A stretch of 36,058 nt of DNA from a virus. Of the stretch, positions 5,703-27,613 are shown piece by piece; within the stretch, counting starts at the first letter, position 1, and each line of letters begins with the position of its first letter. A program made the position numbers and the translations under genes. The stretch is taken from positions 1 through 36,058 of the IMG/VR virus record IMGVR_UViG_3300021139_000059; one strand, given 5' to 3'. The notes below the pieces were generated by a model, which saw nothing but the letters and a program-made list of their open reading frames with translations, did no database searches and had not been told where the DNA came from.

Positions 5703-7289
5703 ATGGCTTTAGTTGTTGCGGATCGAGTCCTAGAGACTGGGACCGTATCTACGGGTACGGGTTCCGTTAACCTTGCGGGCGCAAATAATGGGTACCAATC
5801 TTTTGTTGGTGCTATAGGTAGTGGCAACACTACTTATTACGCTATCTACGATTCAACCTCATACTCGTGGGAAGTGGGTATTGGTACCGTTACATCGGGT
5901 ACGCCTAATACTTTATCAAGAACTACAGTACTTTCTTCATCTAATAGTGGATCTTTAGTTAGTTTTAGTACAAGCGATACACTTACTGTATTCAGTACTT
6001 ATCCTACAGAACGAGCTATTTATGGTGACGTTAATAAAAACGTAGCAGTTAATAATTTATCACCTGGATATACTGCAGTAGCAACAACGGGCGGTACAAC
6101 TACATTAACTGCAACCGCAACATACTTACAAAATTTTACTGGCACTAATACCCAAACAGTTAAATTACCCGATGAGACAACCATTCCTACAGGTACGGCG
6201 TATATTATCGACAATGACTCTACGGGTAACATAACAGTTCAAGATAGTGGTGGTAATACATTAGCTACAGCAGTTAACGGTTCTGCGGGGTATTTTTATT
6301 CAAAATCTAATTCCACTGCTACTGGCAACTGGGCGGGTTATGCCTTTATGCCTAACAATGTCCAATGGGGTTCTGGTGGTCTACCTGCGGGTTACGGTGG
6401 TACGGGCCAAACTAGTTTAACTGCAAATAATGTAATTCTTGGTAATGGTACTTCAGCAGTTCAATTTGTAGCCCCTGGTACAAGTGGTAATGTACTTCAG
6501 TCTAATGGTACAACTTGGAATTCAGCGGCAGTAGTAACTTCTTTTACATCTAGTTCAGGATTATCTACTAATACATCTGCAACTGGAGCAGTATCTGTTA
6601 CCAATACAGGTGTTACTTCCGCCGCTGCGGGTACGGGCATTTCAGTTTCAGCCTCAACTGGCGGTGTAACAATTACAAACTCGGGTGTAACTTCTGCTGT
6701 TGCAGGAACAGGTATTTCAGTTTCAGGCTCAACAGGCGCAGTAACTATTACAAATGGTGGAGTTACATCATTAACAGGAACAAGTAACCAAGTTTCTGTA
6801 TCATCCTCTACTGGTAGTGTAACTTTATCTACGCCTCAATCTATTGGAACAAGCTCAAGCGTACAGTTTGGATCATTTGGCGTAGGTACTGCGGCATCTG
6901 GAACCACTGGTGAGATTCGTGCAACCAACAACGTAACCGCTTACTATTCTGATGGCAGGCTCAAAGATCGTATTGGAACAATTGAAAATGCTTTGAATAA
7001 GGTTAAACAGTTAACTGGATTCCTATACAAAAATAATGATGTTGCCAAATCTTTTGGTTATACTTCTGACGAAATTCAAGTTGGTTTAGATGCTCAAGAA
7101 GTTGAGAAAGTTCAACCAGAAGTTGTGGCTCCTGCTCCTTTTGATATTGGTCAGAATGAAGACGGCACAGAGTTCAGCAAGTCTGGTGAAAACTATTTGA
7201 CTGTTAGATATGAGCGACTCATACCACTTTTGGTTGAGGCTATTAAAGATTTATCGAACGAGCTTGACGAAATCAAAACAAAATTATGA
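5703..7289 (+). CDS. Tail fibre protein with C-terminal peptidase S74 (intramolecular chaperone) domain
   Basis: A 528-residue fibre. Residues 1-105 form a conserved fibre N-terminus (VVADRVLETGTVSTGTGSVN, YAIYDSTSYSWEVGIGTVTS). The middle is Ser/Thr/Gly-rich shaft, including three 25-residue repeats at 303-377. Residues about 410-528 are an S74 domain: YYSDGRLKD with the expected catalytic Ser416 and Lys421, then LDAQEVEKVQPEVV, RYERLIPLLVEAIKDL and a C-terminal helix. In this family the domain trimerises the fibre and then cuts itself off at the Ser. AAGGAG precedes the ATG. The stop overlaps the next gene (ATGA). Likely receptor-binding or receptor-proximal fibre. Confidence 0.88.
   Translation: MALVVADRVLETGTVSTGTGSVNLAGANNGYQSFVGAIGSGNTTYYAIYDSTSYSWEVGIGTVTSGTPNTLSRTTVLSSSNSGSLVSFSTSDTLTVFSTYPTERAIYGDVNKNVAVNNLSPGYTAVATTGGTTTLTATATYLQNFTGTNTQTVKLPDETTIPTGTAYIIDNDSTGNITVQDSGGNTLATAVNGSAGYFYSKSNSTATGNWAGYAFMPNNVQWGSGGLPAGYGGTGQTSLTANNVILGNGTSAVQFVAPGTSGNVLQSNGTTWNSAAVVTSFTSSSGLSTNTSATGAVSVTNTGVTSAAAGTGISVSASTGGVTITNSGVTSAVAGTGISVSGSTGAVTITNGGVTSLTGTSNQVSVSSSTGSVTLSTPQSIGTSSSVQFGSFGVGTAASGTTGEIRATNNVTAYYSDGRLKDRIGTIENALNKVKQLTGFLYKNNDVAKSFGYTSDEIQVGLDAQEVEKVQPEVVAPAPFDIGQNEDGTEFSKSGENYLTVRYERLIPLLVEAIKDLSNELDEIKTKL
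6609..6833 (+). repeat. Three 75-base (25-residue) repeats in fibre shaft
   Basis: Residues 303-327, 328-352 and 353-377 of the S74 fibre follow the pattern GVTS--AGTGISVS-STG-VTITN. The first two copies are nearly identical in protein and close in DNA; the third is diverged. Such repeats are typical of triple-beta fibre shafts and can vary in copy number by recombination. Confidence 0.8.
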
Positions 7290-12454: not shown

Positions 12455-12924
12455 AGTACATCATTGCTATTATTCTTTTTTCTAGCTTTGTAGGCGGAGT
12501 CTATGAAGCGGGGCATCATCAAGGCTACGCAGCCGCAGAAGCTGAAGTTCAGGCTAAAGTAGCCAAAGCTAACGAAGCCGCTAGACAAACCGAACAGCAA
12601 CTCAATGGCAGGATTGCTGACCTATCAACTCAACTTCAAAAGGTGCAAGATGATGCTAAAAAACAAATTGCTAAACGGGATGCTGATATTGCTACTGGCA
12701 AGTTGCAGCTCTTTGTCAAAACCAAGTCCACAGTATGTCCCCCCTCAAATGCCCCCGCTACCAGCGGACCTGACACCGCAACCGCCCAACTTGACCCAGC
12801 GTTTGCTCAATCTCTTGTCGCCGTCACAGACGACGGGGACCTCGCAATCAGGAAACTTAACGCCTGTATCGCAACCTACAACCAAGTAAAGGAAATGATC
12901 AATGGAAGTACAACAACTCGCTGA
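12451..12924 (+). CDS. Rz: Inner-membrane spanin (Rz-like, i-spanin)
   Basis: A 157-residue type II membrane protein: N-terminal helix MKYIIAIILFSSFVGGVYEA anchors it in the inner membrane, followed by a long Ala/Glu/Lys/Gln coiled coil (about 28-90: AEAEVQAKVAKANEAARQTE, LSTQLQKVQDDAKKQIAKRD) in the periplasm and a C-terminal region with cysteines (VCPPSNAP, NACIATYNQVK). This is the standard i-spanin layout. The o-spanin Rz1 is encoded inside it in the +1 frame, the hallmark of nested Rz/Rz1 pairs. Together they fuse inner and outer membranes in the last step of lysis. It starts at an ATGA overlap with the holin candidate and ends within the endolysin start region. Confidence 0.85.
   Translation: MKYIIAIILFSSFVGGVYEAGHHQGYAAAEAEVQAKVAKANEAARQTEQQLNGRIADLSTQLQKVQDDAKKQIAKRDADIATGKLQLFVKTKSTVCPPSNAPATSGPDTATAQLDPAFAQSLVAVTDDGDLAIRKLNACIATYNQVKEMINGSTTTR
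12650..12889 (+). CDS. Rz1: Outer-membrane spanin lipoprotein (Rz1-like, o-spanin), nested in Rz
   Basis: A 79-residue lipoprotein lying wholly inside the Rz gene in a different frame. Signal MMLKNKLLNGMLILLLASCS has lipobox LASC with lipidated Cys19; the mature part is Pro-rich (PSPQYVPPQMPPLPADLTPQ), as is usual for Rz1. I chose ATG 12650 (AAAGG upstream at suitable distance; ATG 12653 is the alternative) over an earlier in-frame ATG at 12605 that would bury the signal peptide. In the model for lambda, Rz1 sits in the outer membrane and pairs with Rz across the periplasm. Signal, lipobox, Pro-richness and nesting all agree. Confidence 0.85.
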   Translation: MMLKNKLLNGMLILLLASCSSLSKPSPQYVPPQMPPLPADLTPQPPNLTQRLLNLLSPSQTTGTSQSGNLTPVSQPTTK

Positions 12925-13507
12925 AGCAGCAAAAATAGATGTAGGTCATGCGGAAGCTCTAATTGAGCCAATGAAAATGGCTATTGAGAAAGCCGATCTG
13001 TCTACCCCTGCACGACTAGCAGCGTTTATTGCTCAGTGCGGTCATGAATCCGGCAACTTCAAGTACATGGAAGAGAACTTAAACTACAAGGCTGAGAGCC
13101 TTTGCAGAACATGGCCATCTCACTTTAACGAGGAAAATGCCGCTGAATATGCCCACAATCCAGAGAAGATCGCCAACAGAGCCTATGCCCACCGCATGAA
13201 AAATGGAGATGAAGAATCAGGAGACGGTTGGGCTTATCGCGGTCGCGGGTGGCTGCAAACCACTGGTCGCGCAGGGTATGAAGAGCTATCTGATGCAACC
13301 CAGATTGATTTTTTAAGCAACCCCGATGCCGTTGCTACGCCCGAAGGGGCGGCCTTATCCGCAGCCATATTTTGGGAAAAGCATCAGCTTAACCGCCATG
13401 TAGATAATAATGACTTTGTGGGCTTAACAAAAGCCATAAATGGTGGGACAATTGGGCTTGAGGACCGCATGGCTCGATATGAGCATGCCATGTCTGTTTT
13501 AGCTTGA
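12902..13507 (+). CDS. Endolysin, glycoside hydrolase family 19-like
   Basis: A 201-residue cell-wall hydrolase. Residues 42-62 hold FIAQCGHESGNFKYMEENLN, with Glu49 of the HES motif as the likely catalytic acid and Glu57/58 as the second carboxylate; YRGRGWLQTTGRAGYEEL (about 112-129) is the classic GH19-type endolysin signature, and LTKAINGG follows near the C-terminus. The family cleaves the glycan strands of peptidoglycan. No signal peptide or extra wall-binding domain is visible, so release depends on a holin, agreeing with the upstream candidate. The start overlaps the end of Rz by 23 bases, with AAGGA 8 or so bases before the ATG. Confidence 0.88.
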   Translation: MEVQQLAEAAKIDVGHAEALIEPMKMAIEKADLSTPARLAAFIAQCGHESGNFKYMEENLNYKAESLCRTWPSHFNEENAAEYAHNPEKIANRAYAHRMKNGDEESGDGWAYRGRGWLQTTGRAGYEELSDATQIDFLSNPDAVATPEGAALSAAIFWEKHQLNRHVDNNDFVGLTKAINGGTIGLEDRMARYEHAMSVLA

Positions 13508-13514
13508 GGAATTT

Positions 13515-16112
13515 ATGCCCTTACAAAGACTACAGTTTAGAGCGGGAATTAACCGGGAGGGCACAGATTACGCCAATACGGGTGGTTGGTATGACTGTAA
13601 TAATATTCGTTTTCGTTCTGGGTTCCCAGAAAAATTAGGTGGATGGGCACAAGTTAGCCCAAATCAATTTATAGGGCATGCAAGGGCACTTTGGAGTTGG
13701 GTTGACTTATCTGAAAATAACTTTATTGGTGTTGGTACACAGATTAAGTACTATATATACAACGGCGGTGCTTATAACGATATCACACCTATTATTCAAA
13801 CCGATACACTTACCAATCCTTTTACAACAATTTCTAGCTCTGCAATAGTAACGGTAACGGACGGGGGGTATTCCCCAAATGTAGGCGATTATGTTTTATT
13901 TTCCGGTGCCTCAACTGTAGGGGGGTTGACTTTAAATGGAGAGTATGTAGTAACTGGGATTGTTTCAGCAACGCAATATCAAATTACTGCTTTAACTACG
14001 GCTTCTTCAAGTGCAACAGGTGGAGGAACAGTTACCGCCCAATATGAATATCCAACGGGCTTAGATACATTTACTTCAGGAAATGGTTGGGGTATTGGTC
14101 CTTGGGGCGGAGTAGTTAGTCTCAGTCCTATATCGTTAGGATCAAATCCTTTTGCGACTATAAATGGCAGTGCTACTATTACAGTGACTCAAACCGCGCA
14201 TGGGCTAACTACAGGTAATTATGTTTTATTTTCTGGGGCTACAAGCTTTGCAGGTATACCAGCAATTGTTTTAAATAATTTATATTCTATTGTTGTAACT
14301 GGGGTAAATACCTATACCATAGCAATTTCTACAATTGCGGGTTCTTTGACTGCTAATGCTACAACTTCAGGCGGTGGAAGCAGTATTACTGTATTAGAAC
14401 AATCAGGTTCCCGTGGGTGGGGCACTGCATATTCGGGCGTTAATAATTTAGGTAGTCAACTGCGTCTTTGGTCCAACGATAACTTTGGTCAAGATTTAGT
14501 TATCGCCCCAAGAGGTGGTCCAATATATTATTGGGCGGATTCAACTGGAGTTAGCTCAAGAGCCGTATCTCTTGTATCTTTAGCAGATTCAACAACTTCT
14601 ACGACTACAACTGCTACTTTTAGTAGTGGCGTTAGTTCAATTACTGTTGGAAATCCTGCAAGTATTTATGCAGGTGCATATGTAACAGGTACTGGAATAC
14701 CTGCCAATACTTATGTATTAAGTACTTATATTACCGGTTCTACTACGGTTCCACTTTCCGCATCAACTACTGCAAATAGTTCAGGAAATTACGGATTTTC
14801 TTATTCTGGATCCGCTGTACCCATTGCAACTTATCAAGTAATTACATCCGCTATACAAGAATTTGTTATCTGTTTTGGAGCTAATCCTTACGGTTCTTCT
14901 ACATTTAACCCTATGGTTGTTCGTTGGTCTGATCAGGCTAATGCCTATCAATGGGTTCCAAATATTACAAATCAATCAGGTGACTACACATTAACAAACG
15001 GTTCTTATATTGTTGGTGCAAGATCTACTCGCCAAGAAATTTTGATTTGGACGGATTCTGCTTTGTATTCTATGCAATACACCGGAGCGCCTTATGTTTG
15101 GGGTTTCCAAATTATGATGGATAACATTAGCACCATATCTCCAAACTGTATGGTTACGGTTAATAATGTGACATATTGGATGGGCCAAGATAAGTTTTAT
15201 ATTTATACTGGTTCTGTAGCAACGCTGCCCTGCTCCGTGCGTCAATATGTATTTGAGAATTTAAATTCGCAACAATCTTATCAAGTATTCGCTGGGGCTA
15301 ATGAAGCATATAACGAAGTATGGTGGTTCTATTGTTCTAATGGTTCTACCACTATAGATTCTTACGTTATCTATAATTACCTTGACCGTGTATGGTATTT
15401 CGGGGAAATGGCTAGAACTGCATGGCTACAAAATGGTCTTGAGCAATACCCAGTAGCAGCTTGCTATAATACTAATTCATTATTTACTGGTTATATATCA
15501 GGAACTACCCTGCACGTAACAGCTATTACATATGGTTCTTTGGCAGTAGGGCAAACCCTAACTGCACAAGGTATTGCCGCAAATACCACAATCACCGTTT
15601 TAGGTACTGGTTCTGGTGGTGTAGGAACTTATACAGTTTCTGTTAGCCAAACGATTGCGTCTACAACTATAGTATCTTCAAATGGTAATGGGGTATTAGT
15701 TAACCATGAAATTGGAACAGATGACAATTCTACCCCAGCAACCTTACCAATAGATGCTTATGTGCAATCATCTGATTTTGAGATTGGTCAAGGACACAAC
15801 TTTGGGTTTGTATGGAGGATACTGCCGGACGTAAACTTTAATGGATCTACGGCGGATAACCCAACCGTAACTATGACGGTTAAACCTAGACAAAATTCAG
15901 GAAGTGCTTACGGTCCGGCGGATAATCCACAAGTCCAGAGTGCAAATAATTATGCGTTATCAAGTGAATATAACATTCAACAATTTACTGGGCAGGTATA
16001 TACAAGGTTGCGTGGGCGGCAGATGAGCTTTAAAATAGAGTCCAGTTCTGTCGGAACTGCTTGGCAGCTTGGCGTACCCCGTATTGACATTAGACCGGAT
16101 GGTAGAAGATGA
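13515..16112 (+). CDS. Large tail nozzle/tubular-like structural protein with inserted beta domains
   Basis: An 865-residue protein. The N-terminus (PLQRLQFRAGINREGTDYAN, GGWYDCNNIRFRSGFPEKLG) and the core (IQEFVICFGANPYG, IWTDSALYSMQYTGAPYVWG, VTYWMGQDKFYIYTG, VWYFGE) have the WD-like, beta-propeller style of P22 gp10/T7 gp12 nozzle proteins. The C-terminus (RLRGRQMSFKIESSSVGTAW, RIDIRPDGRR) is strongly conserved in environmental podoviruses. Four Ser/Thr/Gly-rich beta domains interrupt the core at about 101-177, 211-294, 365-431 and 655-722; the first two are related copies. It would form the distal tail tube. The nozzle role is inferred from these resemblances. AGGA precedes the ATG. Confidence 0.68.
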   Translation: MPLQRLQFRAGINREGTDYANTGGWYDCNNIRFRSGFPEKLGGWAQVSPNQFIGHARALWSWVDLSENNFIGVGTQIKYYIYNGGAYNDITPIIQTDTLTNPFTTISSSAIVTVTDGGYSPNVGDYVLFSGASTVGGLTLNGEYVVTGIVSATQYQITALTTASSSATGGGTVTAQYEYPTGLDTFTSGNGWGIGPWGGVVSLSPISLGSNPFATINGSATITVTQTAHGLTTGNYVLFSGATSFAGIPAIVLNNLYSIVVTGVNTYTIAISTIAGSLTANATTSGGGSSITVLEQSGSRGWGTAYSGVNNLGSQLRLWSNDNFGQDLVIAPRGGPIYYWADSTGVSSRAVSLVSLADSTTSTTTTATFSSGVSSITVGNPASIYAGAYVTGTGIPANTYVLSTYITGSTTVPLSASTTANSSGNYGFSYSGSAVPIATYQVITSAIQEFVICFGANPYGSSTFNPMVVRWSDQANAYQWVPNITNQSGDYTLTNGSYIVGARSTRQEILIWTDSALYSMQYTGAPYVWGFQIMMDNISTISPNCMVTVNNVTYWMGQDKFYIYTGSVATLPCSVRQYVFENLNSQQSYQVFAGANEAYNEVWWFYCSNGSTTIDSYVIYNYLDRVWYFGEMARTAWLQNGLEQYPVAACYNTNSLFTGYISGTTLHVTAITYGSLAVGQTLTAQGIAANTTITVLGTGSGGVGTYTVSVSQTIASTTIVSSNGNGVLVNHEIGTDDNSTPATLPIDAYVQSSDFEIGQGHNFGFVWRILPDVNFNGSTADNPTVTMTVKPRQNSGSAYGPADNPQVQSANNYALSSEYNIQQFTGQVYTRLRGRQMSFKIESSSVGTAWQLGVPRIDIRPDGRR
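13815..14396 (+). repeat. Duplicated beta domain in the nozzle-like protein
   Basis: Residues 101-177 and 211-294 both begin NPF-TI--SA-(I/T)VT and share G-YVLFSGA--..G and a YTI/YQI--L strand followed by Ser/Gly/Thr-rich sequence. They are separated by a segment with GWGIGPWGG. This looks like a duplicated, inserted accessory domain. Confidence 0.65.
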
Positions 16113-16436: not shown

Positions 16437-18155
16437 ATGAATTTATTAAACAAATTATTAAACCCCCTTGAGATTATCAAGACGTTTACCTTTTTTGTTG
16501 ACGGAGGAATTGGTGAGGCTGCTCTAGCTAGTGAGGCCGTAAGCGGAATGGATTTAGCAGCGGATGCCGGTCTGAGTGGAGCAAACGCTATAGGTGGCGG
16601 TGCTTTAGCTACTGGCGTAGGTTCGGGCGCAACGGTTAGTGGTATGGATTTAGCCGCTGATGCCGGAATGGGAGCTAACAATGCTATTGGTAGTAATGCG
16701 CTATCTAATATGCCAATTGGACCTGGAACACCAACAGGCCCTGCAATAAATGCGGCAAATGCAGCAGTAAATGAAGCTAACGTAGCAGCAAACGCCGCAA
16801 GTCCATATGCTCTTAATGGCGCTTCTACGACATTGAATTCTGCTGGATCTATGGCTAATACTTTCCCTAGCTTGCAAAATGGGTCTATAGCCAATGGTTT
16901 AAGCAGCTTGCAAGGTAACCCATCTGTTTTGGCTAATGCACCATCTCTTGCTGATGCTTATACAACAGCTAATCCAGCTTTAGGTCCGGGTCTTGGACTT
17001 AACCCCGCTTTAGGTCAGGCTGGATTTAATGCTGGAATGGCAAATGCTGCCACTGCTTCTGCTTCTCCTTTTAGTTCTTTGGGTAATATGTTTAGTTCAG
17101 CTGCACAATGGGCAAGTGCTAATCCAGTTAAAGCTACAGCATTGGGGGGTGTAGCAGGTATATATGCGTTGATGAAATCTGGTGCAATGAATCCAAATTA
17201 TATGACACCATATCAACCACCCAGTGCCGCATCAGTTGGACTTGGTAGAACATTGTCACCACAGTATAAACCTACATTTGCAATGGCGGAAGGTGGAGTT
17301 ACTTCACTTGCTATAGGCGGTACGCCTGGGCAACAATATCCTATGAGTCAAATTAACTATAACGGATATAACACACCTACACAAATGCCAACAACCGCTA
17401 TGCAAATGGCGGGGTATCAACCTAGTAATATGCCATTACAAGGCGCATTACAACAAAATATGGCATCTGGTGGTTCCGCCAGTTCTAGTCAGTCTACACC
17501 TTCTAGCGTTAGTAGTTCTAGTGCCCCTGTTTCTGGAATTACTGCGGCGGGTTTAGATACCGCACCCGAATTAAATGTTTGGCATCCCAGTGCTTCTAAT
17601 AATGGCAGTTTGCAAGATCTTGCCGCGCAATACGGAGTTAGTTTGCCTAGTGGAATGGCCAATCAAGGGGTTACTTCGTTAGCATCTGGTGGGGATACAT
17701 TAGCCCAAATAGCAGGACAACAAAATTCCCCCATAGATCCAAGGACTGGGGTTCCTTATGATCAAGAACAATTTAATAACCCAGGATTTTTTGGTGGGTT
17801 AGGAGAAAGCATAGATAATTTAGGTCGAAGCATAGGTAAGGGACTAGGGTTTGCTCATGGTGGTAGTGCCGGGGGGTATAACCTAGGAGGATACTCAGAT
17901 GGTGGACGATTACTTAAAGGCCCGGGAGATGGTATGTCTGATGATATTCCCGCTTCTATCGCACACAAACAACCAGCAAGATTGGCAGATGGCGAATTTG
18001 TTGTGCCTGCTGATGTTGTCTCTCATCTTGGTAATGGTTCTACTGATGCTGGTGCTAAACATCTCTATTCCATGATGGACAGAGTACGTAAAGCACGTAC
18101 TGGTAATCCAAAACAAGGTAAACAAATTAAACCAGAAAAGTATTTACCTGCATGA
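16437..18155 (+). CDS. Putative internal virion/structural protein with LADGEFVVPADVV domain
   Basis: A 572-residue Ala/Gly/Asn/Ser-rich protein. Near the N-terminus a block is duplicated 32 residues apart (SGMDLAADAG at 36 and 68). Two copies of a GGV-SLA-GG motif occur at about 286-295 and 410-419. The C-terminal 75 residues (GPGDGMSDDIPASIAHKQPA, RLADGEFVVPADVVSHLGNG, MMDRVRKARTGNPKQGKQIK, PEKYLPA) are a conserved domain of uncultured-phage structural proteins. AAGGA precedes the ATG, and the stop overlaps the next start (ATGA). It begins the run of likely ejection proteins; the exact role is unknown. Confidence 0.72.
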   Translation: MNLLNKLLNPLEIIKTFTFFVDGGIGEAALASEAVSGMDLAADAGLSGANAIGGGALATGVGSGATVSGMDLAADAGMGANNAIGSNALSNMPIGPGTPTGPAINAANAAVNEANVAANAASPYALNGASTTLNSAGSMANTFPSLQNGSIANGLSSLQGNPSVLANAPSLADAYTTANPALGPGLGLNPALGQAGFNAGMANAATASASPFSSLGNMFSSAAQWASANPVKATALGGVAGIYALMKSGAMNPNYMTPYQPPSAASVGLGRTLSPQYKPTFAMAEGGVTSLAIGGTPGQQYPMSQINYNGYNTPTQMPTTAMQMAGYQPSNMPLQGALQQNMASGGSASSSQSTPSSVSSSSAPVSGITAAGLDTAPELNVWHPSASNNGSLQDLAAQYGVSLPSGMANQGVTSLASGGDTLAQIAGQQNSPIDPRTGVPYDQEQFNNPGFFGGLGESIDNLGRSIGKGLGFAHGGSAGGYNLGGYSDGGRLLKGPGDGMSDDIPASIAHKQPARLADGEFVVPADVVSHLGNGSTDAGAKHLYSMMDRVRKARTGNPKQGKQIKPEKYLPA

Positions 18156-18565
18156 CACTTACTATAAAACACGTATCCACAAACTATTGCGCCCAAACTT
18201 GGCCTTTAGTTGAAAACTTTATTGCTGAAGCACATAAGCATGGTGGTGGTGACTATAGTATGGATCAAATTCAAATGTATGTTAATTTGGGTAGTTGGGT
18301 TTTACTGATTGCAGTTGATGAGAACAATGTAATACACGGTGCGGGCACAGTTTCATTTATTAACTATCCAACAAATAGAATTGCATTTTTTACTACCATT
18401 GGTGGTAGATTAATTTCAAATCAAGATACTTTTAACCAATTAAAAGTAATACTAAGAAACATGGGAGCGACTAAAATACAGGGCGCAGTAAGAGAATCTG
18501 TAGAAAGGTGGCTTAAACGGTATGGTTTCGCAAAGCGCTACACGGTAGTGCAATCAGATATTTAG
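18152..18565 (+). CDS. GNAT-fold protein, possible internal virion protein (T7 gp13-like)
   Basis: A 137-residue protein with GNAT acetyltransferase-like order: N-terminal helix (WPLVENFIAEAHKH), strands with WVLLIAVDENNVIHGAGTVS and RIAFFTTIGGR, then helix LKVILRNMGATKIQGAVRES and the terminal VERWLKRYGFAKRYTVV, where a WL-RYGF ending is typical. A canonical acetyl-CoA loop is not evident. T7 gp13, encoded just before the other T7 internal virion proteins, has a similar fold, and this gene occupies the same relative position. It may therefore act structurally during assembly or ejection; true acetyltransferase activity remains possible. Confidence 0.66.
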   Translation: MTLTIKHVSTNYCAQTWPLVENFIAEAHKHGGGDYSMDQIQMYVNLGSWVLLIAVDENNVIHGAGTVSFINYPTNRIAFFTTIGGRLISNQDTFNQLKVILRNMGATKIQGAVRESVERWLKRYGFAKRYTVVQSDI

Positions 18566-18574
18566 GAGTTTATT

Positions 18575-19717
18575 ATGAGTGGTGGTGGATCAAGCGGCGG
18601 CGGGCAAACGCAACAACAGAATCAATATACAAATTTATCTTCTTGGGCACAACCATATGTGACAAGTATACTTGGTGCTGCTCAACAACAAGTATTTCAA
18701 ACAGATCCTACTACTGGGCAACTAACTGGTATAAATCCATATAGTGCTTATGGATCTACCAACCCCGCTGGGGGTCAATATGGACTTACTGCATCTGATC
18801 AGGCAGCTGCAAATGCTTCAATAGCTGGATTTAGTCCGCTTCAAACTCAGCAGCAACAAGCAGTACAAAATTTGCAGAATCCTTGGCAAACAGGCGCAGC
18901 GTCTAATCAAGTTACCCAATCCATGAATACTGCTAATCAGTTAGGCGCATCTGCTACTCCTCAAGATTTTCAAAATCAAGTGGGCGGATATATGAATCCG
19001 TTTATTGCTCAAACGCTTCAACCATCGTTGCAAATTCTTAATCAGCAATATGGGCAACAAGGGGCTGCAGAACAAGGAGCCGCTACAAGCAGAGGCGCAT
19101 TTGGTGGAAGTCGTGAAGCTTTAATGCAAGGATTAAATCAACAAAACCAAAACCTAGCTGCTAATCAATTAGTAAGCAATGCGTATAACAATGCGTTTGG
19201 TGCCGCACAAAACCAATACAACCAAAGTGGCACATTTGCTTTGCAAGCTGCTAACCAAGCTGCTCAAAATGCAGGACAATTAGGCGCTTTAGGTACGCAA
19301 GGTTTACAAAACCAACAAAATATTCTTAATATGCAGGGTACTGCTGGTGGGCAGCAGCAACAGCAACAACAGAATATCATCAACCAAGCGATGCAAAATT
19401 ACTCCAATGCTCAGCAGTATCCAATGCAGCAGCTTGGCCAGTTAAAGAACTTAGTTTCTGGCATTCCAGTTACAGATGTAACTACAACTCAATCAGCAGC
19501 TGCCCCTTCTACAATTGGACAACTTGCCGGTCTTGGAACTACTGCGGCAGGTATATATGGATTGGCTAACATGGGCAGTAATAGCAACACGCCTTCAGTA
19601 GTTGTCAATAATACTACTCCTCAACCTAAGAACGCAAAAGGAGGACAGATTAAATCCTATGCGGCTGGTGGGGTTGTTAGCCTTCAGTTAGAAAATATTA
19701 TGAAGGGTACAAAATGA
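18575..19717 (+). CDS. Gln/Asn/Ala-rich internal virion protein candidate
   Basis: A 380-residue low-complexity protein with AGGAG before the ATG. It opens MSGGGSSGGGQTQQQNQYTN and is rich in Gln, Asn and Ala throughout, with long helices (LAANQLVSNAYNNAFGAAQN) and a seven-Gln run. QQYGQQGAAEQGAATSRGAF followed by GGSREALMQG is the most conserved-looking stretch. A short hydrophobic Gly/Ala segment (about 315-335, IGQLAGLGTTAAGIYGLANM) precedes the C-terminus, which carries KGGQIKSYAAGGVVSLQLEN. By composition and order it resembles T7 gp14, which enters the outer membrane during DNA ejection. The role is inferred. Confidence 0.68.
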   Translation: MSGGGSSGGGQTQQQNQYTNLSSWAQPYVTSILGAAQQQVFQTDPTTGQLTGINPYSAYGSTNPAGGQYGLTASDQAAANASIAGFSPLQTQQQQAVQNLQNPWQTGAASNQVTQSMNTANQLGASATPQDFQNQVGGYMNPFIAQTLQPSLQILNQQYGQQGAAEQGAATSRGAFGGSREALMQGLNQQNQNLAANQLVSNAYNNAFGAAQNQYNQSGTFALQAANQAAQNAGQLGALGTQGLQNQQNILNMQGTAGGQQQQQQQNIINQAMQNYSNAQQYPMQQLGQLKNLVSGIPVTDVTTTQSAAAPSTIGQLAGLGTTAAGIYGLANMGSNSNTPSVVVNNTTPQPKNAKGGQIKSYAAGGVVSLQLENIMKGTK

Positions 19718-21912
19718 TTTCTCCTATCCAATCATTAATAAATACTCCAGAAAAATTTTCGGTTCAGGAAATTCAAAATGGTATTCAGGATGGCGTTATT
19801 CCTGCCTATATTGGCATGCCTATCCTGCAACAAAAAGTCCAACAGCAAAAACAAGCTATGGCAATGATGGCCCCGCAAGGTCAGGGTCAAGGTCAACCTC
19901 AAACAACTGTAGCAGATGATATTAATAATTCCGTGGCTAGTTTACATAGTAATCTTCCAGTTATGCATGCCGCTTCTGGTGGTGTGATGGCACTTGCTGA
20001 AGGTGGAGATTTTGAAGATGAAAATGATGACGATAATCTTGGATTCGATGATAATTTAGTTAGTGGCAGTAAAGAAGATCAAGCATTATTTAATAGATTG
20101 CAAGATCAAATAAACACTCCGGCAAGACTTCCAGAAACTACGCCTATGGATGATTTTGTTGATTCATATACAAATGAAGCTCCTATGGCTGCACCTGCTT
20201 CAAGTCAAGCGCCCTCTGCCGGTATTATGGCTGCGCCCGGTGCTCAGATGATGGCAGAAAAAATTGGTCAAACTCAGGCCTATCAAGGTCCTGGCATGAA
20301 TAAGCCGGTAGTAGCGCACAAAGAAGAGACAAGAGTTAAAGAACCGGCTAAAGAGACGGACATGGAAAAAGCTCGTCACTACAACGTAGGTAACTTACGT
20401 CCTGATAACTTTACGTATAAAGGACAAATAGGTAAAAGTAAGTCTGGCTTTGCTTTGTTTGACAGTCAAGAGTCTGGGGTCAACGCTCTTACTCATGATA
20501 TTCAAGTAAAACTAAATCGAGGCGTAAATACACCAGAGCAGTTTATTAATATATATGCACCTAGGAAAAGTAAGGGTGGGGACAATCCTGATAGCTTAAC
20601 CGATGCGTATATTAATAATGTATCTAAAGCTTTAGATATTAGACCCGGCGATAAAATTCCAAATACACCAGCAGGCATAGCCGCTTTGCGTGACGCAATT
20701 ATCCGTCAGGAGGGGGCACAGTATACCCATTTAGCGCAAGGTGGTGTAGTTAGTTTAGCTACAGGTGGAGTAATTGGGTTTGCTGGAGGGGGATTAAAAT
20801 CAGATCCAACTGAAAATAGTGAAGGCGACATGGATCCAGTAACTGGCATGCCAAACTTCATGCTAAATGTAAACCCAGTACCTAAATTTTCTAGGCAGAA
20901 TTTAGAGCGCGCTGAGAAAATGCAAAATAACCGTAGCCCTGTTGGATATACACCTCCAAACAAAGAAACTACTGCGCAATATACTCCAGGAGTAGATAAA
21001 GGAGCAACTGTACCTAAATTAAGCCAAAGCGCATTAGAAAGATACAGCGATCCTGCAGTGCAAGATCTATTAGTAAGTAGAGGATTAGGTAATACCGCTA
21101 GTTCTACAGTACCTAATCCATTTGCCCCAAGTCAATCCCAAGTAACTGACGATGCAATGTATACCAACATTCAAAATCCTCAACCAGCTACTGGGGCAGC
21201 GCCACAAGCAGAATCACAACAAGCCGCACCGCAAGATGATTATCTTAAAACTATGGTGGACATATTAAATAAACGTCAAAATGCTGCTGACCAACAAAGA
21301 AATATTGATAAATATATGGGGCTGCTAACCGCAGGTCTTGGAATTATGTCTAAAGCTGGAACTGTCGCCCCCGGTGTAGTTCATTCTGCATTTGGAGATA
21401 TTGGAGGAGGCGCACAAGCTGGTATTGCTTCTTTAGCTAACGCACGTAGAAATCAGATTGCAGAAGAAAATTCTATTATGTCTGGTCAACTTGGTCTTGC
21501 CCGTGCAAACTTATATGAGAAAAGCCGCGCAGATGCATTAACACAGAGAAAGATTGAAAACGCATTACATGTAGATTATCTAAATAGAGATTTGGATATT
21601 AAGAACCGAAACGCACAAACAATGCAAGAGAAAGCTGAGGCTCAAAATAGACATCTTCAAAATTTAGTTGACCAACAACAAATAACTAATCAGTTTAAAC
21701 GAGCTGACCTTGCTAGAAAGTATGAAGATCAATGGATAGGTAGTCCAGAAGAAAAACGTCTTTTAACTCAGTTTAATCAAAAAAATTGGGCAAGTGATCC
21801 TAAAAAACTTGGGCTATATAATGCTACTAAAAAGCAATTTTTAAACGATAGAGTTATGGGAGAGATGGCTAATCAAGATATACCCACTGCAAATTCTTTA
21901 TTAACACAATAA
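19714..21912 (+). CDS. Internal virion protein with lysozyme/transglycosylase-like domain
   Basis: A 732-residue protein beginning at an ATGA overlap. Residues about 1-45 are helical (INTPEKFSVQEIQNGIQDGV); an acidic linker follows. Residues about 220-337 resemble a peptidoglycan-acting domain: RHYNVGNLRPDNFTYKGQIG, GFALFDSQESGVNALTHDIQ, FINIYAPRKSKGGDNPDSL, TDAYINNVSKALDI, as in NPGNLR-type lytic transglycosylases. GGV-SLA-GG motifs lie at 89-98 and 343-352, the second followed by VIGFAGGG. The C-terminal third is a long charged coiled coil (DALTQRKIENALHVDYLNRD). It probably opens the wall locally during DNA entry, as T7 gp16 does. Confidence 0.7.
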   Translation: MISPIQSLINTPEKFSVQEIQNGIQDGVIPAYIGMPILQQKVQQQKQAMAMMAPQGQGQGQPQTTVADDINNSVASLHSNLPVMHAASGGVMALAEGGDFEDENDDDNLGFDDNLVSGSKEDQALFNRLQDQINTPARLPETTPMDDFVDSYTNEAPMAAPASSQAPSAGIMAAPGAQMMAEKIGQTQAYQGPGMNKPVVAHKEETRVKEPAKETDMEKARHYNVGNLRPDNFTYKGQIGKSKSGFALFDSQESGVNALTHDIQVKLNRGVNTPEQFINIYAPRKSKGGDNPDSLTDAYINNVSKALDIRPGDKIPNTPAGIAALRDAIIRQEGAQYTHLAQGGVVSLATGGVIGFAGGGLKSDPTENSEGDMDPVTGMPNFMLNVNPVPKFSRQNLERAEKMQNNRSPVGYTPPNKETTAQYTPGVDKGATVPKLSQSALERYSDPAVQDLLVSRGLGNTASSTVPNPFAPSQSQVTDDAMYTNIQNPQPATGAAPQAESQQAAPQDDYLKTMVDILNKRQNAADQQRNIDKYMGLLTAGLGIMSKAGTVAPGVVHSAFGDIGGGAQAGIASLANARRNQIAEENSIMSGQLGLARANLYEKSRADALTQRKIENALHVDYLNRDLDIKNRNAQTMQEKAEAQNRHLQNLVDQQQITNQFKRADLARKYEDQWIGSPEEKRLLTQFNQKNWASDPKKLGLYNATKKQFLNDRVMGEMANQDIPTANSLLTQ

Positions 21913-21913
21913 A

Positions 21914-24900
21914 ATGCTTCTTGATCTACCTAAACTTGGCACGGTAAAGTTTGACGATAATCTTACTGAAGATCAACTGAATTTACAGTTAGATGCACTT
22001 GCCAAAAAATATAACTTTGAACTTCCCCGTGGGCAATTAACTACTGGGGAGATGAGTAAGCGCGCTTTAACGCGTGGGTTTACGGAACTTGGATCTACTC
22101 TTACAGATGTCATCCCTGCTATGGGAGCAAGTGCTTTAGGATTTAATGATTACGCTAAAGAACAATTAGAAGAAGCTGCAGATAAACAAAAAGAACTTTC
22201 TACAAGATACGCACCCCAATACCGTACTAGAAAAGACGTAAAAGGTATTAGCGATGTTCCTGGATTTGCGTTAGAAACTGTACTTGAAAATGCGCCTAGC
22301 ATATTAACATCTCTTGTACCTGGTGTTGGCGCAGAAGTTGCCGCTACTAGGGCTGGACTTGGCGCTGCTGGAAAAGCTGTAGCTGGTGGTGCCGGTGCTT
22401 TCCTTGGTTCTTATGCACAAAACGCCCCTGATACATTTCAAGGTATCTACGAAAAGACCGGACAATTAGCCCCGGGAGCTGCTGCTATTTTTGGTGCTGG
22501 ACAAGCCGCACTTGACTCTATATTACCTGCACAAGTTTTAAATAGACTTAGTGGTCCGATGAAAGCTAGTATTGTTGAAAAGGTATTAGAGAAGTCGGGC
22601 ATGGATAAGGCGCTATTGCGTACTATTACTGCGAACACAATACAGGCAATGACTGAAGAGGGTCTTACTGAAGGCGCACAGGAAGCGCTTAGTATTGCCG
22701 CAGAAAATTTTGTAGCTAAACATCCCCAAGTATTTAATAGCGAAGATTGGGATCGCATCATGGAATCAAGTGTCCGTGGTGCAGTAGCTGGTGCTCCATT
22801 TGGTGGGGCTAGTGGTGCTATTGAACATAGCAGAAGAGCGTATCAGGCTCAATTAGATGCGGCTAAAGATCAAGCAAAAGATACTGGCAAGTCAGTAATG
22901 CTTGCACTTCCGTATGACCCTAAAGTTTCTGCCCCAACAGAATATGGACAACAAGTTATTTATGTACACCCAGATGGTAGTACATCCCAAGGCTCAGAAT
23001 TATCTGACGAAGCATTTGCACAGCAGTATCCTAAATTTACTCCCCCTGCTCCATTAGATACGCAGGCTGCGCTTAAAGCAAATCAAATTGCAATTAACCA
23101 AGGACGCAAAGAAGAAAAGCAAAGAGAAGCTCAAGCTAAGTTAGCACAACAAAACTTAAAATCAGTTATTGCGGAAATTGCCCCAAATAATATTGATTTA
23201 TTATCTTTAGCTCAGACTCCATCCCCAATACAACAAACAATTATTCAGCAACAGGCTGAAAATGATGCCCTAGCTGCTAAAAGAAATCCTCCACCAAAAG
23301 CAGCGGGCGTTACACCACAACCGGCCACAACTGCTGAAGTAGTAACACCACAACAAGTTTCTACAGTAATTGACGACAATACATTTAAAGCTTTGGGTAT
23401 TGGTCCCAGCGCAAAGATAATCAGAGACAAGTTAATACATGGCAAAGATATTGCCGACCCAGCTCAAGCGGCTGAAGTAAAGTCTATACTTGAAGACTTT
23501 GCAAATAAAACAACAAGCAAAAAAGCACGTGACAATATTGGGGCATTTTTGGATCGCCCTGAATTTAAAGGAGTAGAAAATGTTGCAGGACCTAACGCCA
23601 GCACAAGTGGAACAAGCGTTCCTGTGGCTGGACAAACCAGTGAAAACGCGCCCGCCGGAGGACCTACTGAACTTGAATCAAATGGAGTGGTTTCTACTGG
23701 AGAGAATGTTGAGCCAACTGCTACAGGAGAAGCAGAGCAACCCCTTACAGTAAGGAAAAAAGCTAAGGGCAAAAAAGAAATTGCTGATGAAATTAAAGCT
23801 GAAACAGGGGAAGAGACTGCGCAAAAAGAACAGCTTGATTTTGTGCAACAAAATGAGCAAAACACAAATGACTTGATTAACAATCAAGTTCAAGCTGCTG
23901 CTAAAGATGCTGGGCTGCGCCCCGAAAGTATTGATATTGAGGATCATTCCAATACAGATGCGCATAAAACACTTAGACTGCCAGCTCTTTTGGCTGAGTA
24001 TTTCCGTCTAGGCGAAATGATTAAAGCGGATCCAGCTAAAGCTAAAAAGAATCAAAAAGAACGTGACGTTATTAAGAATGCAATTGATAAGTCTACGCCT
24101 GAAGCAGCTAAGTTTTTACAGACTTTAGAAAGATATACCCCTGCCCAACGTGATGCTTTAATATCAGAAGTTGGTAAGCAGGGTAGGCAGCATATGAATG
24201 ACTTGGTAAAAGCCAAAGTCGATGAAGCGGTTAAAAATTCTGCCAACAAACAAAAACCTGCAGAGCAACAGATAAACCCTGAGCCGGAAATAGATGAAGC
24301 TAAAATAGATGAAGCAACTAAAAAGCTTGCAGAAATTTTGCATGCTAGGGGCATCTCTAGATTCTTTGCTCCTAAATTCAAAGGTAAAGATTTAAATGAG
24401 CGTGGGCAAGAACTAGCTCGTCAAGGTAACTTTAATGGGTTACTCGATCATCTTATTAATACAGTAACAGACCCCGAGATTAAACAAGTATTACGCAAGA
24501 TCCGTTCACTTGGCAATAAACCAAAAATTGTAATCGGTCCTGTTGAGGGAGATCGTCCTGGTTCTTATGACCCAGTAACCAATACGATTACGCTTGATCT
24601 AAATACTGGATTGAATGAGCACACAGTTATGCATGAGATGGCACATAGTGCTTTAGCTCACATACTAGAAAACCGTAATCATCCGCTAACAAAAGAGTTT
24701 GTAAAGTTCTTTGACCAAATTAAAAACCAATTAGGTAATGCTTATGGTGGGGAAAACTTACAAGAATTCGCAGCTGAGTTAGTAGGTAACCAACAATTCC
24801 AAGCTCTGCTCAAAGACATCAAAGCCCCAAAGAGCAAGAATATGTTTGTGCGTATTCTGCAAACTATTGCCGAAGCTCTTGGTTTCCGCAAAGGGCAGTC

Positions 24901-27613
24901 TGCTTACGATAAAGGATTAAAGTTTATCAATGATTTACTTGATGTATCCGAAGGGGTTGAGTCATCAGCTTCTAATAAGATGTTCTTGGGTAACGGTAAT
25001 GCTTGGAGTTCTTTAAGTGATATAGGCATGTCCATGCCAGCTCTTGGTAGGCAGTCTATCGAAAACGCTAAGAATACCTTCTCCAACATAAAAGATTTTG
25101 GTTGGCTAAAAACAGCATTTAAAACATTGCGTCTTGATAATATCAACACCATATATGGCAAAGAATTGCCATCTATCCAAACACTGCTTGATGCAATTGA
25201 GACTCGTACTGGTAGAGTACAACAAGAGCGTACAAAACTAGAGAATAAAGTAAAAGAATTTAGGAAGATTGAAACTAAATTCCCCGAAGCAGTTAAGAAA
25301 ATGGATGACATGGCAATTGATGCCAGACTTGCGGGGATTGAATTAGTATCTCAAATTAACCCTAATTTTAAACCTGATGCTAAAAACTTAGCGGAATACA
25401 ACAGGTTAAAGAGTGTATATAACTCTTTACCAAAAGAAGTTCGTGAGATGTACGACAGTATTCGTACTGACTACCAAGACGCGATCAATGGTTATCTGCA
25501 TTTATTAATTGGTGATCCAGCCAAGGGTGTACCCGGCATGGTTGAGCCTGGTCTTGCACAAAAACTTAAAGCCCAGTTTGAAGCTGAAAAGCGCGTTGCT
25601 GGTTATGTGCCATTTAAACGCTATGGTAATTTCTGGGTAGAGTATGCAGATCCTGCAACGGGTGAACGTGTGGCAAGCTCCTTTGAATCTATTCGTGAGC
25701 GCCAACAATTTGTAGATGCAAATCTAAAAGATACGCCACATAAGTTATATCGCAATCTTGAGGATATTAGATACCAGCCCGGGACTATCCCACCCACTAG
25801 ATTTATTGGTAACTTGATGGCTACCTTGCAAAAACAAGGCGCTTCACAAAACCAACTTGACTCCGTATATCAGACATACTTGTCTTTGTTCCCTGCTGAA
25901 TCAATCAATAAGCAGTTTATGAAGTCTAAGAATGTGCTTGGTATGGAGAAAAATACCCTGCGCAACTATAGCAACACGATGTGGTCATGGACTAACAAAC
26001 TTGCTAATACGGAATTTGGTCCGAAGATTGATAAGGCTATTGAAGGTATTAAAACAGAAGCAAGTAATGCGAATACCCTTGAGACTGCGGCGGTTGCCGA
26101 AACCATTGCAGAACAAAATAACTTTTTCCACAACCCAACATTTGGAAACTTAACTCATACCGCCACTGCGCTTAGTTACTTCGAATACATTGCAGGTAAC
26201 GTATCGTCTGCAATAGTTAACTTAACTTCTTTGCCAATGCTTGTATGGCCCACATTAGGTGGTAAGTTTGGGTTTGGTAAAACAAATTCTGCTATGGCAG
26301 CCGCAGGTAAACTAGCTCTGGGCGATTGGAGTAAGGACGCAAGATACAAGAACTTGTATCAAGCTATGATGGACCACGATCAGCTTGGACATACAACTGC
26401 ACGCAATGTACTTGAAGCAAAAGGTGGAGCGCCTGGATTCTCTAGTCTGTACGGCAGAATATTAGATGGCTTGTCAATACCGTTCTCTGCATCTGAAAGA
26501 TACAACCGTGCAACCACAGGTATCGCTGCATATGATTTAGCAAAGCAAAGCGGAATGAGCGAGGCAGAAGCTATTAAGTATGCGCTAACCACTACAAAAG
26601 ATCTTCATACGTCAGGTCTAGCTTCGACAGCGCCGCTGTGGATGCAGAACCCAGTTGGTCGTGTTATGTTTACCTTTAAGTCCTATGCATGGAATAGTGC
26701 ATTTGTCATAGCGCGTGCTTTCCATCAGGCTTTTAAGAATGAAGATCCAGCTATCCAACGCGCCGCACGTAGACAACTTTTAGGTATCTTTGGGATGTCT
26801 ATGGCTTTTGGTGGTATCAAAGGTCTGCCTTTCCACGGAGCAACAACTTTACTTGCGACTATGATCCAGTCCTTATTTGGGGATGACGATGAGCCATTTG
26901 ATGTGGATGAGGAAATGCGTGACTTTTTTGGTGAAGCTCTTTACAAAGGCGCATTTAACTACGTAACAAATTTAGAAACATCTAATCGCACAGGACTTGC
27001 AACTGATCTAATCTTTAGGGATGACCCAAGGGGCGTTGCCGATCACGGTTATGCTTTATCTGCTATGCAACAAGCTTTTGGACCTGCTGGTACATATTTG
27101 GTCAATGCAGAAAATGCGATCAAGTTAATGAAGGAAGGACACACAGAGCGTGCGATTGAGTCATTATTGCCAAGCTTTATCCGTAACGGATTTAAAGGCG
27201 CAAGGTACATGAATGAAGGCGCATTGACGCTAAAGGGTGATCCAGTTCAAGAAGATATAAGTGCATGGAATAGTATGATGCAGGTAGCAGGATTTGCCCC
27301 TGCCGAGTTATCTAGTATTTACGAAAAAACCTCTGCAGCAAAAGCAGCGGAGAATCAAATTAAACAACGCCGTACCGCTATCCTAACCGCATACGATATG
27401 GCACGTACATCTGGCGATGATGACTTGATGCAAGAAGTTAGAGAGCGTCAACAAAAATTTAACGAAGCGCATCCGACCGACAGAATAACTCAAGAGAGTT
27501 TAGAAAAATCTCATCGTGCACGGGTTGAGAATGAAAAGAATGTAATAAATGGCGTTACATTTAATAAACACTTAGTTAAAGAAATTAAACAGAATTACTT
27601 TAATGAGGAATAA
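21914..27613 (+). CDS. Giant internal virion/ejection protein with HExxH metalloprotease-like motif (LPD38/PLxRFG type)
   Basis: A 1899-residue protein. About 115-210 is an Ala/Gly-rich hydrophobic region (VPGVGAEVAATRAGLGAAGK, APGAAAIFGAGQAALDSILP). A Gln/Lys-rich linker spans about 380-860. Residues 907-911 are HEMAH (LNEHTVMHEMAHSALAH), a zinc-protease motif, with EFAAE at 951-955 as possible third ligand. Long helices follow. The C-terminal part (about 1420-1660: FEYIAGNVSSAIVNLTSLPM, NPVGRVMFTFKSYAWNSAFV, RQLLGIFGMSMAFGGIKGLP) resembles the membrane-active LPD38/PLxRFG region of large phage ejection proteins. It would travel with DNA into the cell. It ends next to the terminator. No frameshift is seen. 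Confidence 0.76.
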   Translation: MLLDLPKLGTVKFDDNLTEDQLNLQLDALAKKYNFELPRGQLTTGEMSKRALTRGFTELGSTLTDVIPAMGASALGFNDYAKEQLEEAADKQKELSTRYAPQYRTRKDVKGISDVPGFALETVLENAPSILTSLVPGVGAEVAATRAGLGAAGKAVAGGAGAFLGSYAQNAPDTFQGIYEKTGQLAPGAAAIFGAGQAALDSILPAQVLNRLSGPMKASIVEKVLEKSGMDKALLRTITANTIQAMTEEGLTEGAQEALSIAAENFVAKHPQVFNSEDWDRIMESSVRGAVAGAPFGGASGAIEHSRRAYQAQLDAAKDQAKDTGKSVMLALPYDPKVSAPTEYGQQVIYVHPDGSTSQGSELSDEAFAQQYPKFTPPAPLDTQAALKANQIAINQGRKEEKQREAQAKLAQQNLKSVIAEIAPNNIDLLSLAQTPSPIQQTIIQQQAENDALAAKRNPPPKAAGVTPQPATTAEVVTPQQVSTVIDDNTFKALGIGPSAKIIRDKLIHGKDIADPAQAAEVKSILEDFANKTTSKKARDNIGAFLDRPEFKGVENVAGPNASTSGTSVPVAGQTSENAPAGGPTELESNGVVSTGENVEPTATGEAEQPLTVRKKAKGKKEIADEIKAETGEETAQKEQLDFVQQNEQNTNDLINNQVQAAAKDAGLRPESIDIEDHSNTDAHKTLRLPALLAEYFRLGEMIKADPAKAKKNQKERDVIKNAIDKSTPEAAKFLQTLERYTPAQRDALISEVGKQGRQHMNDLVKAKVDEAVKNSANKQKPAEQQINPEPEIDEAKIDEATKKLAEILHARGISRFFAPKFKGKDLNERGQELARQGNFNGLLDHLINTVTDPEIKQVLRKIRSLGNKPKIVIGPVEGDRPGSYDPVTNTITLDLNTGLNEHTVMHEMAHSALAHILENRNHPLTKEFVKFFDQIKNQLGNAYGGENLQEFAAELVGNQQFQALLKDIKAPKSKNMFVRILQTIAEALGFRKGQSAYDKGLKFINDLLDVSEGVESSASNKMFLGNGNAWSSLSDIGMSMPALGRQSIENAKNTFSNIKDFGWLKTAFKTLRLDNINTIYGKELPSIQTLLDAIETRTGRVQQERTKLENKVKEFRKIETKFPEAVKKMDDMAIDARLAGIELVSQINPNFKPDAKNLAEYNRLKSVYNSLPKEVREMYDSIRTDYQDAINGYLHLLIGDPAKGVPGMVEPGLAQKLKAQFEAEKRVAGYVPFKRYGNFWVEYADPATGERVASSFESIRERQQFVDANLKDTPHKLYRNLEDIRYQPGTIPPTRFIGNLMATLQKQGASQNQLDSVYQTYLSLFPAESINKQFMKSKNVLGMEKNTLRNYSNTMWSWTNKLANTEFGPKIDKAIEGIKTEASNANTLETAAVAETIAEQNNFFHNPTFGNLTHTATALSYFEYIAGNVSSAIVNLTSLPMLVWPTLGGKFGFGKTNSAMAAAGKLALGDWSKDARYKNLYQAMMDHDQLGHTTARNVLEAKGGAPGFSSLYGRILDGLSIPFSASERYNRATTGIAAYDLAKQSGMSEAEAIKYALTTTKDLHTSGLASTAPLWMQNPVGRVMFTFKSYAWNSAFVIARAFHQAFKNEDPAIQRAARRQLLGIFGMSMAFGGIKGLPFHGATTLLATMIQSLFGDDDEPFDVDEEMRDFFGEALYKGAFNYVTNLETSNRTGLATDLIFRDDPRGVADHGYALSAMQQAFGPAGTYLVNAENAIKLMKEGHTERAIESLLPSFIRNGFKGARYMNEGALTLKGDPVQEDISAWNSMMQVAGFAPAELSSIYEKTSAAKAAENQIKQRRTAILTAYDMARTSGDDDLMQEVRERQQKFNEAHPTDRITQESLEKSHRARVENEKNVINGVTFNKHLVKEIKQNYFNEE

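Follow-up and report, generated by a model that had tools for sequence, protein, structure and literature searches.

The 36,058-nt window (the whole stretch of viral DNA analysed here) carries a short apolar motif, flanked by glycine pairs, that is real, conserved, and specific to delivery proteins, namely the ejection proteins of podophages and the tape-measure proteins (TMPs) of long-tailed phages. Its full form, G[V/I/L/M/F]x[A/S][L/F]AxGG, is confined in the window to three proteins of 572, 380, and 732 aa (p572, p380, and p732). The unit can also be written AxGG[IVL]xx[LFY]xxGG, with a GG-to-GG register of 8 residues, and the fuller consensus reads [M/F/Y/A]-A-x-G-G-[I/V/L]-x-[A/S]-[L/F]-A-x-G-G. 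The open-access literature searched yielded no paper describing such a glycine motif for ejection proteins or TMPs. Proteins of both kinds are hard to recognise, given their fast divergence and largely disordered character, and the motif offers a sequence handle on them: about 90% of the in-frame occurrences among the matches listed in an unbiased scan marked such proteins. It also ties the ejection proteins of short-tailed phages to the TMPs of long-tailed ones, and it singles out residues for mutational study of how a chain is stored in, and released from, the virion. Genes were called as simple longest ORFs, and the features concerned are these:

13515..16112, plus strand: 865-aa nozzle-type tail protein (PDB 9nwi_Y; 8zkk, nozzle gp16), the upstream marker of the ejection operon
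16437..18155, plus strand: p572, 572 aa, first motif protein, mostly disordered, with a TMP-type C-terminal module
17292..17321, plus strand: GGVTSLAIGG, p572 aa 286-295
17667..17693, plus strand: GVTSLASGG, p572 aa 411-419, a poorly conserved column
17844..18152, plus strand: p572 C-terminal module FAHGG...GPGDGMSDDIPA...GEFVVPADVV, common to TMPs
18152..18565, plus strand: 137-aa gene, kept by many relatives, that separates those for p572 and p380
18575..19717, plus strand: p380, 380 aa, second motif protein, matching PHROG 4287, DNA ejection protein (E 1.1e-11)
19664..19684, plus strand: AGGVVSL, p380 aa 364-370, the second half of AKGGQIKSYAAGGVVSL
19714..21912, plus strand: p732, 732 aa, third motif protein, fused to p380 in most relatives
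19762..19869, plus strand: p732 N-terminal helical domain, aa 17-52 (AlphaFold pLDDT 84-91)
19978..20007, plus strand: GGVMALAEGG, p732 aa 89-98, in the linker preceding the hydrolase domain
20374..20748, plus strand: p732 peptidoglycan-hydrolase-type domain, aa 221-345 (PDB 9vvp_L, Gp29, E 0.0025)
20740..20793, plus strand: double motif GGVVSLATGGVIGFAGGG, p732 aa 343-360, immediately following the hydrolase domain
21914..27613, plus strand: 1899-aa protein with an LPD39, DarB-like region

All five sites named in the original prediction are present where it placed them; its description of the three proteins as consecutive is not strictly right, since the 137-aa gene separates those for p572 and p380. 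At p572 aa 411 a Q stands in place of the first G, and the site thus lacks its leading GG; AGGVVSL in p380 lacks the trailing GG, with the stop codon 10 aa further on; and the double motif in p732 consists of GGVVSLATGG at aa 343 and GGVIGFAGGG, which begins at aa 351 and overlaps it. Across the three proteins there are 4 matches to the extended form G[VILMT]x[SA][LF]AxGG, compared with fewer than 0.001 per within-protein shuffle, and GGVx[SA]L also occurs 4 times against 0.013 expected from shuffles. The six-residue core GGVxSL turns up once each in two proteins outside the trio, at nt 6756 in one of 528 aa and at nt 14106 in the 865-aa nozzle-like protein, and specificity belongs to the extended form only, not to this core. 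Between pairs of copies, 1 to 6 of 10 third codon positions are identical; because the copies differ at silent sites, the constraint acts on the protein rather than on the DNA, and a DNA-level repeat is ruled out.

The same specificity is seen among related phages. The sample comprised 60 pieces from 26 related contigs together with the window, about 1.2 Mb with 1,433 ORFs and 386 kaa. All 16 strict matches in it fall within the p380, p572, and p732 families, bearing out the predicted enrichment in ejection genes, and none was found in the approximately 350,000 residues of other proteins from these contigs and the window. Nor does the motif appear at the random frequency that might be expected of Gly-rich proteins, with 16 sites per 738 GG dipeptides in the three families versus 0 per 2641 elsewhere. 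Fisher p-values were 3e-17 by residue, 2e-19 by protein, and 2e-11 per GG dipeptide, all inflated by relatedness. Since relatedness has this effect, an unbiased scan of IMG/VR was added, in which the motif was searched as a degenerate DNA pattern and a permuted pattern served as control; the figures refer to the matches listed, 120 stretches for each pattern. Among these, the forward pattern was in frame in 108 proteins, of which 63 come from loci that also contain ejection-operon genes, while 35 carry the TMP C-terminal module LVGE..E.vvPl; among the other 10, 4 are TMP- or p572-like by eye. The matches listed for the permuted control gave 57 in frame, with only 5 of the 57 at such loci. PHROGs labels the forward-scan families as tail length tape measure, versus scattered labels for the control families, and the TMP module assignments agree with independent genome annotation.

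Conservation follows the same residues. Across 49 orthologues of p572, conservation reaches 96-98% at G286 and G287 and 88% at A284, compared with column maxima that average 32%, and AxGG is retained where the linkers diverge. Spacing from GG to GG has its maximum at 8 residues (47 observed versus 8.3 expected; 22 versus 5.7). The expectation that orthologues would keep the motif holds for most of them, but the cultured orthologues furthest removed have it in reduced form or not at all: MinM2 and GB2A retain the AxGG core alone, or nothing. The p732 alignment mixes fused and split proteins, and its partly misaligned columns at aa 80-105 were left out of the conclusions. A solenoid or long-array repeat was rejected, as strict three-unit arrays with an 8-residue period occur at 13 loci, 3 of them in frame, compared with 32 loci for a 9-residue and 24 for a 7-residue period. 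Longer strict octad arrays are present in other viral proteins, at loci L381 and L383 (LASGGLSDLASGGLSDLASGG; LLSGGVNNLLSGGVNNLLSGG).

The genes lie in an operon whose order is kept across relatives (77 loci), and the upstream nozzle was found in 36 of the 38 related contigs searched. A cluster that follows nozzle and tail genes and has a peptidoglycan hydrolase in one member is the arrangement of podophage ejection proteins, and from operon position and family match we assign p380, p572, and p732 as putative ejection proteins. The position after the nozzle, the large hydrolase-bearing protein, and the match of p380 to the PHROG DNA ejection family all recall the T7-type gp14/gp15/gp16 set (PMC8954989), but gene lengths and order differ, and a sequence search of the PDB, including the solved ejection proteins, gave no match for p380. 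A tblastn search of cultured phages with p380 was also negative; a profile search later recovered homologues in MinM2 and GB2A. BLAST gave 50 hits for the 137-aa protein, placing homologues at many of the related loci; it has no significant Pfam or PHROG match, and looks acetyltransferase-like by eye only. The 1899-aa protein is probably also delivered, and the strict motif is absent from it. It closes the operon as a large polyvalent-type protein, whose C-terminal part matches an antirestriction PHROG of DarB-like type and which has, around aa 902-939, an HExxH stretch (SprT-like, weak).

AlphaFold mean confidence is low for p572 (52) and p732 (57), and the motifs sit at pLDDT below 50 in both models. 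Shallow alignments may account for this low confidence; the motif-bearing linkers are probably disordered. In p732, the motif segments come between the helical domain at the N-terminus, which is modelled with confidence, the hydrolase region, and a set of long helices at the C-terminus. The hydrolase region resembles the N-terminal part of a T7-gp16-like internal protein and attracts annotations of T7-type internal virion protein D or lytic transglycosylase; searching the PDB for folds like that of the p732 model gave no significant match. Six of eight 732-type relatives scanned have the Pfam SLT transglycosylase here, with one motif upstream of it and, in several, a second about 20 aa past it. 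The window's p732 gives no SLT match, and both flanking motifs are still there. Thus the predicted bracketing of the peptidoglycan-acting domain stands even where the hydrolase type differs, and the predicted placement at domain borders is seen in the low-confidence linkers of the p572 and p732 models and on both sides of the hydrolase.

We propose that the motif acts as a hydrophobic sticker hinged by glycines, set in linkers that can be threaded and sequence-specific but promiscuous, and give this inferred role a probability of roughly 40%. The GG pairs would prevent stable folding of the chain and so allow it to pass through portal and nozzle or a tail tube, while the apolar stretch of 4-6 residues would bind weakly and reversibly, whether to another chain or to the lumen. 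Such contacts could retain the linker inside the virion until ejection, when they would come apart and set free, in an ordered sequence, the hydrolase domain and the channel domains. In its favour stand the specificity for delivery proteins, the retained AxGG, the 8-residue spacing, the low-pLDDT setting, and the motif's place behind hydrolases of differing type. Counting against a sticker are the 1899-aa protein, probably delivered and motif-free, and the reduction of the element to its core, or to nothing, in MinM2 and GB2A. Moreover, long tandem arrays are rare, and the avidity of any sticker would therefore be low.

The main rival, if an unlikely one, is that the motif is a hinge only, a favoured flexible linker that joins swappable modules and makes no specific contact. 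Its position at domain borders in disordered linkers is what a hinge would show, as is the exchange of the hydrolase domain with the motif kept. Modularity is also evident at the p380-p732 junction (18575-21912), where most relatives have one ORF with the motifs at the junction and the window's split state is in the minority. However, order is constrained beyond glycine, with set positions for the apolar residues, an A at -2, and the 8-residue register, and the strict reversed pattern is absent from the same proteins.

The connection with tape measures comes through the C-terminus of p572. Its C-terminal module aligns with a TMP-type family B (hhalign 97.7%, E 1.7e-12) and its last 100 aa with the TMP gp46 of JBD30 (hhalign 86.9%, E 4e-6). 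The match to the Douge TMP gp16 (8zdo) is weak (E 0.054), with E 2.6e-7 for a related family, and a homologue in a Caulobacter phage carries a tape measure annotation. TMPs, including JBD30 gp46, Douge gp16, lambda gpH, and the PHROG families, share AxGG elements with the window, and in many the full GG[FIV]xAFAxGG lies some 100-120 aa from the C-terminal end; lambda gpH has FATGG 121 aa and YATGG 76 aa before its end. The TMP module GPGTGTSDxIP..GEF corresponds to the C-terminus of p572, which has the GPGTGTSD and GEF elements found in JBD30 and Douge. Unlike the long, mainly helical rod of a TMP ruler, p572 is mostly disordered, its model being largely low-confidence coil, and unlike long-tailed phages the window has an operon with a nozzle and no long-tail tube gene identified. 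A broader and rather doubtful reading is a shared linear code, in which unrelated short- and long-tailed lineages would each flank delivered domains with the GG-bordered apolar motif, needed for proteins to be stored compactly and to pass through the tail in order; the motif could then mark delivered proteins in raw phage genomes.

Docking was among the roles first suggested; here it would mean a peptide that binds one particular groove on a virion component shared by the three proteins, whether portal, nozzle, hub, or core. One motif common to three proteins of a single operon would fit such a role, as would the strand-like alternation between the GG flanks, and docking is in that respect possible. 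But podophage internal proteins and TMPs both carry the motif and have different virion neighbours. Motif variants in different proteins are no more alike within a genome than between genomes (p 0.49, 16 genomes only), which gives no support to a shared co-evolving partner. In the virion structures, the TMP is resolved for its C-terminal 33 residues only in JBD30 (PMC11445458) and its C-terminal 42 only in Douge (PMC13033339), and the module-bearing segment thus lies outside the ordered parts in both, which also fits the sticker proposal. We consider docking improbable.

Still less probable is a membrane-inserting segment for building a trans-envelope channel. TMPs and ejection proteins do both form such channels (PMC10038345, PMC8954989), and the motif is apolar and Gly-rich, but the Wimley-White interfacial energy averages -0.13 kcal/mol over 111 sites and ranges from +0.3 to +3.4 at the window sites. 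Acidic and amide residues are common in the motif, and a bilayer span needs a longer segment; insertion by the motif itself, as earlier proposed, is disfavoured by an interfacial free energy near 0. Processing near GG, separating delivered domains, we hold to be just as much of a long shot. Lambda and T5 TMPs shed C-terminal pieces (PMC10038345), lambda gpH has FATGG 121 aa from its end, and p380 ends about 10 aa past its motif as a separate gene, yet is fused in relatives. The mapped T5 TMP cleavage, however, is after R1127 and not at GG (PMC10038345), and the proposed JBD30 site is residue 1066 rather than the GG at 1022 (PMC11445458). The suggested processing signal is thus unsupported, and general cleavage at the motif is disfavoured.

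Two other glycine elements were considered. RTX repeats (GGxGxDxUx) are likewise short and GG-spaced, but the motif has no Asp/Gly calcium pattern, its register is 8 rather than 9 residues, and its arrays are short; it does not form the RTX nonapeptide array. Double-glycine (C39) leader peptides also have hydrophobic residues preceding GG, but the sites here are internal (aa 89-411) and repeated, unlike an N-terminal leader. Elsewhere in the window, an endolysin of the chitinase/GH19 type (PF00182) is encoded at 12902-13507, and 5-1387 encodes small proteins, rich in Lys, in which xGG modules recur (FSKGGNMKKMSSGG, AKGGTASSRADGCAQRGHTRG, YKEGGKIGLYANIHAKQKRI, and others), the last of them matching PHROG 16028 and the first, at its N-terminus, head-and-packaging PHROGs.
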